From Natrinema ejinorense (GTDB lineage Archaea; Halobacteriota; Halobacteria; Halobacteriales; Natrialbaceae), in contig NZ_NXNI01000001.1 in NCBI RefSeq assembly GCF_002494345.1, positions 868,001 to 932,000 of the forward strand: a stretch of DNA of 64,000 nt. Reading direction: 5' to 3'. The position numbers and the translations under genes were made by a program. Below the pieces are notes generated by a model that had not been told where the DNA came from, did no database searches, and worked only from the letters and a program-made list of their open reading frames with translations. Below, one piece after another: positions 1,360 through 52,219 of this stretch. The stretch's first letter is position 1. Each line of letters begins with the position of its first letter.

Positions 1360-1545
1360 GTGACCGATGTGTCCACCCATATGAACGACGACGTGACGGA
1401 TCAGCGCGAACCGAGTAGTGAACCCGCGGGGACCGCAACGATCGAGTCCTACGAGACCGAAGACGGCGTCGTCTTCTATGACGCCGAGAATCCGCTGGCG
1501 TGGGTAGAGACCTCCCGGACGCTTACTCTCGAGGAACTGGCCTGA
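1360..1545 (+). CDS. Small acidic haloarchaeal protein (DUF7331-like)
   Basis: This is a 61-residue acidic protein of unknown function. The core ESYETEDGVVFYDAENPLAW followed by a C-terminal TLEELA resembles a small family restricted to haloarchaea (DUF7331 from memory). The frame can start at GTG 1360 or at ATG 1381 (eighth codon). A TATA-like sequence at about 1328-1335 would place the transcript start close to 1358-1360, so the GTG start would give a leaderless message. It stands alone between divergent polB and the membrane protein gene at 1681. A run of six T follows the stop. Confidence 0.7.
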   Translation: MTDVSTHMNDDVTDQREPSSEPAGTATIESYETEDGVVFYDAENPLAWVETSRTLTLEELA

Positions 1546-1563
1546 GACGGGCTGCTGTCGCTG

Positions 1564-1569
1564 TTTTTT
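1564..1569 (+). terminator. Oligo-T tract after the small acidic gene
   Basis: Six consecutive T residues lie about 20 bases past the stop codon at 1545 in otherwise GC-rich DNA. Archaeal transcription usually ends at such T-runs without needing a hairpin. This is an inference from position and composition only. Confidence 0.4.
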
Positions 1570-1680
1570 CGTCGCACCCGCGACCGCTGTGGGGCTGGGA
1601 CGACACTGACTGACAGGAGTCCGGACGAAACGGCACTCGCGAAGCGAACGTTTTTCCTTCCGCTGGGCATCGTCTCGAAC

Positions 1681-9545: not shown

Positions 9546-9752
9546 ATGCACAGCAAACGCCTGCAGCGGGAGATCGACGACCTCGTCGCCCAGGGGTGGA
9601 CGATCGAAGAGGAGACGCCGGATCGGGTCGTACTGGTCGACCGCGAGTTCGGGTCGGTACTCTCACACGTCCTGGTCGCCGTCCTCACCGTCTGGTTCTC
9701 GATGGGGCTAGGCAACGTCGCCTGGGGTGCGTACAACTATAGTAGCCACTGA
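9546..9752 (+). CDS. N-terminal half of a split membrane/zinc-ribbon protein
   Basis: These 68 residues begin MHSKRLQREIDDLVAQGW and continue into a hydrophobic helix at about 43-63, in the pattern of a small haloarchaeal family with a soluble head and a membrane hairpin. The family is usually followed by zinc-ribbon cysteines. Here the frame ends at a TGA that lies inside a palindromic element starting at 9741. The missing C-terminal half, with its zinc ribbons, resumes in the same frame after the element (9774-10058). I read the gene as disrupted, so this half may or may not still be made. Confidence 0.6.
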   Translation: MHSKRLQREIDDLVAQGWTIEEETPDRVVLVDREFGSVLSHVLVAVLTVWFSMGLGNVAWGAYNYSSH

Positions 9753-9817
9753 AAGTCAAGGCACACTGACCGCATGATGGCGTTGCGGTCAGTGTGGAAA
9801 TCGTTTCAGTGGCTACT
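9741..9817 (+). mobile_element. Palindromic miniature element (MITE-like), copy A
   Basis: This is a 77-bp element with perfect 14-bp terminal inverted repeats AGTAGCCACTGAAA (9741-9754) and TTTCAGTGGCTACT (9804-9817). Inside is a second perfect 13-bp stem (9762-9774 with 9784-9796) closed by a nine-base loop. The bases AT occur on both sides, a possible 2-bp target duplication. A related 78-bp copy lies at 39516-39593. It carries no gene, which makes it a miniature inverted-repeat element that would need a transposase from elsewhere. It interrupts the gene that starts at 9546. Confidence 0.8.
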
Positions 9818-10058
9818 ATGCGTCTCGAAATCCGAGCGTCGCGTTCTCTGGGACGACGCCGACGGCTGTCCGTCGTGTGGCGCGGCCGTTCCGTCGTCGG
9901 CCGCGTACTGTCCGGCCTGTGGCGACGACCTCGAGACCGGTCCCGACCGAACCGAGGGCGTCGTCTGTCCCGACCGTGATGCGGTGGTCTCCGAGGGGGC
10001 GCGGTGCTGTTCGGCCTGTGGGACGAAACTCGCCGACGCAGCCGACACTCCCTCGTAG
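9774..10058 (+). CDS. C-terminal half of the split gene: zinc-ribbon protein
   Basis: The frame opens at an ATG supplied by the miniature element. Outside it, the protein reads SKSERRVLWDDADGCPSCGA and then CPACG, with a second pair CP...CSACG, giving two zinc ribbons. It lies in the same frame as the half ending at 9752; a single TGA inside the element separates them. The ancestral product was probably one membrane protein with cytoplasmic zinc ribbons. Translation here may start from the element's ATG, or not occur at all. Confidence 0.5.
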   Translation: MMALRSVWKSFQWLLCVSKSERRVLWDDADGCPSCGAAVPSSAAYCPACGDDLETGPDRTEGVVCPDRDAVVSEGARCCSACGTKLADAADTPS

Positions 10059-20165: not shown

Positions 20166-20250
20166 TCAGACGGTCTCCTGTCCGTCAGTGCCGGTGGGAC
20201 CGCGACCGCCCTGCGGTCCCACCGGGACGTCGGGACAGCAAACCGTATCA
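20166..20250 (-). repeat. Structured palindromic repeat, copy 1
   Basis: The centre is a perfect 13-bp stem (20191-20203 with 20213-20225) around a nine-base loop. Outer arms also pair: CTGTCC at 20178-20183 with GGACAG at 20233-20238, and ACGGT at 20170-20174 with ACCGT at 20242-20246. The right half (20224-20250) matches 22 of 27 bases of 52109-52135, and the central stem of that copy differs by compensatory changes. On the minus strand the element begins exactly at the TGA of the small frame 20248-20349. It may act as a transcript end or a structured RNA; its function is unknown. Confidence 0.7.
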
Positions 20251-20349
20251 GCGGTCCTCGTTCTCCCCGCGCTCCTCGGTAACCGTCCGCTCTCCCTCCG
20301 GCAGCGGGTCGGACAGGTCCTCGTGGCGCTCTGCGCCCGCTTCCGTCAT
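20248..20349 (-). CDS. Possible 33-residue acidic small protein after the kinase
   Basis: ATG 20349 opens a short minus-strand frame reading MTEAGAERHEDLSDPLPEGE and ending NEDR-TGA. The acidic composition and GC-rich third positions are haloarchaeal, but there is no family I recognise. It starts 60 bases after the kinase stop, so it could be cotranscribed. Its TGA is the first triplet of the structured repeat, as also happens at the second copy of that repeat. It may be a true small protein or a chance frame. Confidence 0.3.
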   Translation of the reverse strand: MTEAGAERHEDLSDPLPEGERTVTEERGENEDR

Positions 20350-52015: not shown

Positions 52016-52074
52016 GTCGGCCGGTGCCCGCCTCGAACGAGAGCCGACGTCATCGGGGCTGCTGGATGTCAGCG

Positions 52075-52135
52075 ACGGTGCAACCGCGACCTGTCTCGTG
52101 GTTGCACCGGTACATCGGGACAGTAGACCGTCTCA
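52075..52135 (-). repeat. Structured palindromic repeat, copy 2
   Basis: The stem CGGTGCAACC (52076-52085) pairs perfectly with GGTTGCACCG (52100-52109) and extends four pairs further with one G-T pair, closing a six-base loop. The right part (52109-52135) matches 22 of 27 bases of 20224-20250 in copy 1. The central stems differ in sequence but both still pair. On the minus strand the repeat starts exactly at the TGA of the 28-residue gene at 52133-52219. Only the right arm of the outer stem is conserved here. Confidence 0.7.
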
Positions 52136-52219
52136 GTTGAGGACGAGGACGAACCCGGTCACCGCCATCAGGATCGCGATCGCGACCAGCAAGAGCCCGA
52201 ACAGTTCCTTCTCGCTCAT
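52133..52219 (-). CDS. 28-residue membrane micro-protein
   Basis: ATG 52219 opens a frame MSEKELFGLLLVAIAILMAV followed by TGFVLVLN and TGA. A short charged head precedes a single strong membrane helix that fills the rest, which is unlikely to arise by chance. It lies alone upstream of the mutase gene's 3' end, and its stop codon is the first triplet of the structured repeat. Its function is unknown. Similar micro-proteins in other haloarchaea would support it. Confidence 0.55.
   Translation of the reverse strand: MSEKELFGLLLVAIAILMAVTGFVLVLN

Follow-up and report, generated by a model that had tools for sequence, protein, structure and literature searches.

The palindrome at 20166-20250 in the 64,000-nucleotide stretch of the Natrinema ejinorense genome analyzed here (the window) raises the question of whether it is a local structured RNA or a dispersed DNA repeat. 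The initial annotation described a palindrome of about 85 bp and considered a new RNA element, a terminator class and a REP-like DNA repeat. Our analysis confirmed the palindrome and resolved it into a near-perfect palindromic element of 79 bp (copy 1; 20169..20247, + strand) and two flanking TCA triplets. The element aligns with 40 genomic copies and is matched by the covariance model of the family at 96.7 bits. No inverted repeat in the window is longer than that of its arms, which are located at 20170-20203 and 20213-20246, are 34 nt long and are 79% complementary. The element comprises the outer arms ACGGT/ACCGT, the middle arms CTGTCC/GGACAG and a central 13-bp stem. The predicted RNA fold of copy 1 beats 200 of 200 shuffles on both strands, with z scores of -5.5 on the + strand and -3.5 on the - strand. 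For copy 2 described below, the z score is -3.9 on the + strand.

The two TCA triplets (20166..20168, no strand assigned, and 20248..20250, - strand) form a direct repeat and were interpreted as a target-site duplication. Read on the - strand, the right triplet ends a small acidic ORF (20248..20349, - strand) as its TGA stop codon. This ORF is an inferred gene translated from an ATG, and its start may be located further upstream. Its frame ends with RTVTEERGENEDR before the stop, and its coding score is 19.9.

Two additional copies are found in the window. The initial annotation placed a second copy at 52075-52135. This copy is real, but the extent given was too short; the element is 80 bp long and spans 52053..52132 (+ strand; 76.4 bits). 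It is diverged, and its central stem is CGGTGCAACC/GGTTGCACCG. TCA triplets again flank it, at 52050..52052 (no strand assigned) and 52133..52135 (- strand). The right triplet is the TGA stop of a small membrane-protein ORF, MSEKELFGLLLVAIAILMAVTGFVLVLN (52133..52219, - strand), which was aligned in other species of the genus. A third copy (1546..1625, - strand; 80 bp, 44.6 bits, E 5.5e-9) had been overlooked, as had the direct TGA duplication and the position at stop codons. It is also diverged, and older. It is abutted by the TGA stop (1543-1545) of a 61-aa ORF ending with NPLAWVETSRTLTLEELA (1360..1545, + strand), and its distal duplicate has decayed to CGA (1626-1628). All three copies in the window are therefore located at the stop of the adjoining ORF.

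The family is abundant in the genome. A BLAST search of the same genome with copy 1 identified at least 40 copies with 86-97% identity. A covariance model built from 17 copies produced at least 150 scored matches in this genome, at well over 100 places. The left-end 20-mer occurs at 110 places, compared to none for a reversed control. The initial annotation had proposed a covariance-model search for further copies, asking whether they exist and whether their stems stay paired; more than 100 were found, and the pairing is kept. An even sample of the order contained the family in 83 of its 293 genomes, representing 35 of the 87 genera sampled. Copy number is patchy within the genus, from 0 (G003, G006, G010) to at least 76. 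Plasmid records of Natrinema, Haloterrigena, Halomontanus, Natronorubrum and Natribaculum contain copies, and no match to the family was found in phage records. The palindrome at 20166-20250 belongs to a dispersed mobile repeat and does not represent a local RNA element.

The central stems of copies 1 and 2 had been noted to differ in sequence and yet stay paired (GGTGGGACC/GGTCCCACC and GGTGCAACC/GGTTGCACC). This observation is real. Such compensatory changes are general across the family, because both sides have changed in 17 of 27 pairs over 31 copies from many genera, compared to 4-9 when the partners are slid. In these copies, 88% of the cells are paired, versus 25-43% with slid partners. 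For example, the middle stem CTGTCC/GGACAG is changed to CTGTAA/TTACAG. Stem compensation by itself does not demonstrate RNA function. Selection on a transcript hairpin is expected to favor G-U over C-A. In the mRNA sense, the mismatches include 51 G-U and 62 C-A, with no G-U excess (p = 0.35). That the two are equally common argues for a DNA palindrome, not a selected mRNA hairpin. The descriptions 'conserved structure' and 'REP-like DNA repeat' were right in kind.

To characterize individual insertions, we relied on a detailed set of 126 copies from the same genome, a sample biased to the best matches. Seventy of these copies have a perfect 3-bp duplication, which is direct and not inverted. 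It is TCA/TCA in 36 copies and TGA/TGA in 34. No other intact duplication was found among the 126 copies, and TAA/TTA never occurs among the 70 intact ones. In the imperfect duplications, mostly one side is intact and the other has decayed, for example TCG/TCA (17 copies) and TGA/CGA (six copies). In most of them the decay is confined to the triplet away from the gene.

Comparison with a conspecific genome, G061, revealed an empty site. G061 contains GCGGAC-TGA-GTCG, where the genome studied here contains GCGGAC-TGA-[79 bp]-TGA-GTCG (copy G000:C1:473336-473414). The two sequences differ by a clean insertion and its 3-bp duplication. This is the one copy for which a clean polymorphism between close genomes was shown, at the level of single bases. 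G061 shares most of the other copies tested, and the sites of copies 1 and 2 are both filled in it. An empty site in G061 was also considered for copy 1 and ruled out; the length difference is due to a 63-bp in-frame deletion in the neighboring ORF (window 20251-20314), which retains the stop. Several other species of the genus lack the element at the site of copy 2 and keep the TCA (TCA-GTTGA).

Unusual arrangements were also observed. Inverted tandem pairs with a single triplet between them are found at L006 1427-1585, L011 1510-1673 and L214 1001-1148. Their sharing of one TGA fits re-use of the duplicated triplet as a target. Copies lacking part of the central hairpin are found at L185:1001-1057, L213:1001-1057 and L227:1001-1057, and in G061 at the L008 site. 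Three short copies are 57 bp long and two of them have perfect TGA duplications, suggesting either deletion derivatives or a mobile form of reduced length.

The position of the duplicated triplet is highly biased. It is the stop of the adjoining gene in 58 of the 70 intact copies (83%). Overall, the flanking TGA ends a coding ORF in 95 of 126 copies, and in 47 of the 54 best-scoring ones. For comparison, 62 of 1819 background TGAs within 400 bp of elements (3.4%) and 34 of 317 non-coding TGAs in the window (11%) are gene stops. These assignments are based on a home-made codon-usage score, which was checked against ten annotated plasmid copies. In seven of these ten plasmid copies from Natrinema, Halomontanus, Haloterrigena, Natronorubrum and Natribaculum, the NCBI-annotated stop abuts the element exactly. 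A sample of 19 copies taken from other genera has 14 at coding stops. None of the copies had a gene stop on both sides by this score, and about 13-25% of copies are away from any recognizable gene stop. Where an imperfect copy adjoins a stop, the triplet on the gene side has nearly always remained a stop codon. The gene stays intact after insertion because its existing TGA stop is duplicated.

Analysis of empty-site sequences revealed a symmetric target preference, approximately GNC-TGA-RNC. Compared to control stops, G at -3 is found in 71% versus 42%, C at -1 in 80% versus 51%, and C at +6 in 54% versus 30%. The 12 intact copies away from recognized stops have a similar GNC-TGA-RNC context. 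A value of 66% for the share of stops accounted for by the target motif was rejected as circular, since the motif was learned partly from codons, and was replaced by an estimate based on the motif of the non-gene side. With this motif mirrored, the expected stop fraction increases from 11% to 20-44%, with one 64-kb window as background, compared to the 83% observed. Sequence preference thus explains part of the stop bias. The remaining bias must come from selection against other insertions or from an additional targeting mechanism.

One such mechanism would be insertion machinery guided to stops by host factors in translation or transcription termination, and not merely by sequence. The gap between 83% and 20-44% is in line with guidance of this kind, as is the distance from the stop, which is exactly zero with no spread through 3' regions. 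However, the intact copies away from stops have a similar context, selection against insertion elsewhere can increase the bias, and the motif estimate comes from a single window. We consider host-factor guidance unlikely. The chances are similarly low that the transposition system seeks stops as such, by a termination- or guide-directed process, with TGA stops being a general safe harbor across haloarchaeal genomes.

The reading that we favor, and consider very probable, is that the feature is a copy of a stop-codon-associated, MITE-like family that is mobilized in trans. The element is non-coding and 79-80 bp long. Its aligned ends are [T/G]ACGG...CCGT[A/C], and its terminal inverted repeats, formed by the outer arms, are perfect for up to 15 bp in L353. 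Together with the target-site duplication, the empty site and the high, dispersed copy number, these are features of MITEs. A putative DDE-type transposase would recognize the symmetric element ends and cut a palindromic target near GNC-TGA-RNC with a 3-bp stagger, and the element would be inserted in either orientation. Insertions inside genes or promoters would be purged by selection. Surviving copies would then build up at TGA stops, a safe harbor, because GNC-preceded stops match the target. The palindrome may be retained since the DNA ends or a hairpin are needed for mobility, and not for an mRNA hairpin.

Limited searches for an autonomous parent of the family found none. In the high-copy genome G023, the left-end pattern identified only known copies and one adjacent tandem copy. 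None of 30 DDE_Tnp_1 loci, out of several hundred, has matching ends. In the genome studied here, orphan left ends proved to be diverged copies and did not lead to a parent. IS1031-type elements of the IS5 family resemble the family here in duplicating a 3-bp TNA target within a palindromic context. For the family here, however, these searches found neither a transposase nor IS ends that match, and its 70 intact duplications are TGA/TCA only, never TAA/TTA.

Mobilization by a different type of enzyme was also considered. The palindrome could be of the REP/RAYT or IS200/IS605 type, moved as single-stranded DNA by an HUH (Y1) transposase, with TGA being the cleavage or target motif at both ends. 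The palindrome is short, high-copy and mostly intergenic, and equal left and right cleavage motifs would likewise yield a fixed triplet at both ends. IS605-type elements and their palindromic derivatives are numerous in haloarchaea (PMC3119063). However, copies face either way with respect to the target TGA, and the preferred target sequence is symmetric on its two sides. These properties are more in line with a dimer that cuts duplex DNA than with an enzyme specific for one strand, making an HUH-type origin rather improbable.

A structured RNA, or a hairpin at the 3' end of mRNA that is selected in the transcript as a terminator, a stabilizer or a ribosome-stalling element, is the least probable of these alternatives. 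A position directly after stops would place a strong hairpin at the 3' terminus of the mRNA, the stems have compensatory changes, and E. coli REPs no more than 15 nt from the stop codon were reported to stall ribosomes (PMC12306157). We nevertheless reject the proposals of a new RNA element or terminator class and regard selection on the transcript as very unlikely, because the element is found in both orientations relative to the gene (38 versus 57), the TGA duplications and empty orthologous sites indicate insertion, the distribution is patchy across species, a covariance-model search with Rfam families gave no match above the gathering score in the window, and G-U is not above C-A.

The MITE-like family differs from those described previously. 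Like prokaryotic MITEs in general (reviewed in PMC10969869), it is short and non-coding, has terminal inverted repeats, a target-site duplication and a high, variable copy number, and folds as a palindrome. Unlike them, it has no known parent transposon, and its duplication is always TGA and usually a gene stop. A text search of this review for 'stop codon' gave no match. SMR-A and SMR-B of Haloquadratum walsbyi (PMC3119063) are also haloarchaeal, measure about 80-110 bp, and have prominent inverted repeats and no known transposase. SMR-A, in addition, has a strong target preference. In contrast to the family here, with its 3-bp duplication at gene stops, the SMRs were reported to insert without target duplication, and into mobile elements (IS605-type elements and PATEs). 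GTAG/CGTC-tagged REPs (PMC3733652) are likewise high-copy palindromes near genes, and GTAG REP ends often give flanking ORFs a TAG stop codon. There the REP supplies the stop, whereas here the stop pre-exists and is duplicated. The unit here also differs in its length of about 80 bp, three nested stems and 3-bp duplication, and a GTAG or CGTC tag at the hairpin foot is absent from the aligned ends of the family. Neither this family nor any MITE that targets stop codons was found described in the literature searched, which was mostly open-access.

Two other repeats were noted. To the right of the element in L007 (query 1356-1446) is a different abundant palindromic repeat (TCGCGACTGAAACGATTTACACACTGATCGCA...TGCGATCAGGTGTGCAATGCCTTTCAGTTGCGA), which the conspecific genome carries at more than 20 places. 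This repeat itself was struck by the element at its internal TGA. The window also contains a perfect 16-bp inverted repeat, ATAGTAGCCACTGAAA/TTTCAGTGGCTACTAT, at 9739-9819. A Natronorubrum plasmid (L243) has a similar sequence (CAGTAGCCACTGAAAATCA) next to an element, suggesting that the repeat at 9739-9819 probably belongs to another dispersed family.

The stop-codon-associated family is widespread in Halobacteriales and, as far as we could find, undescribed. Mobile elements usually limit the harm they cause by residing in intergenic DNA or at a few special sites. Landing on stops and duplicating them would give such an element hundreds of harmless sites per genome. It also places a strong hairpin directly behind many genes, which could alter mRNA ends and translation. 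The family is worth knowing for annotators of haloarchaeal genomes and provides an easily tested case of target choice. Identification of its transposase could make it possible to tag genes at their stops without breaking them.
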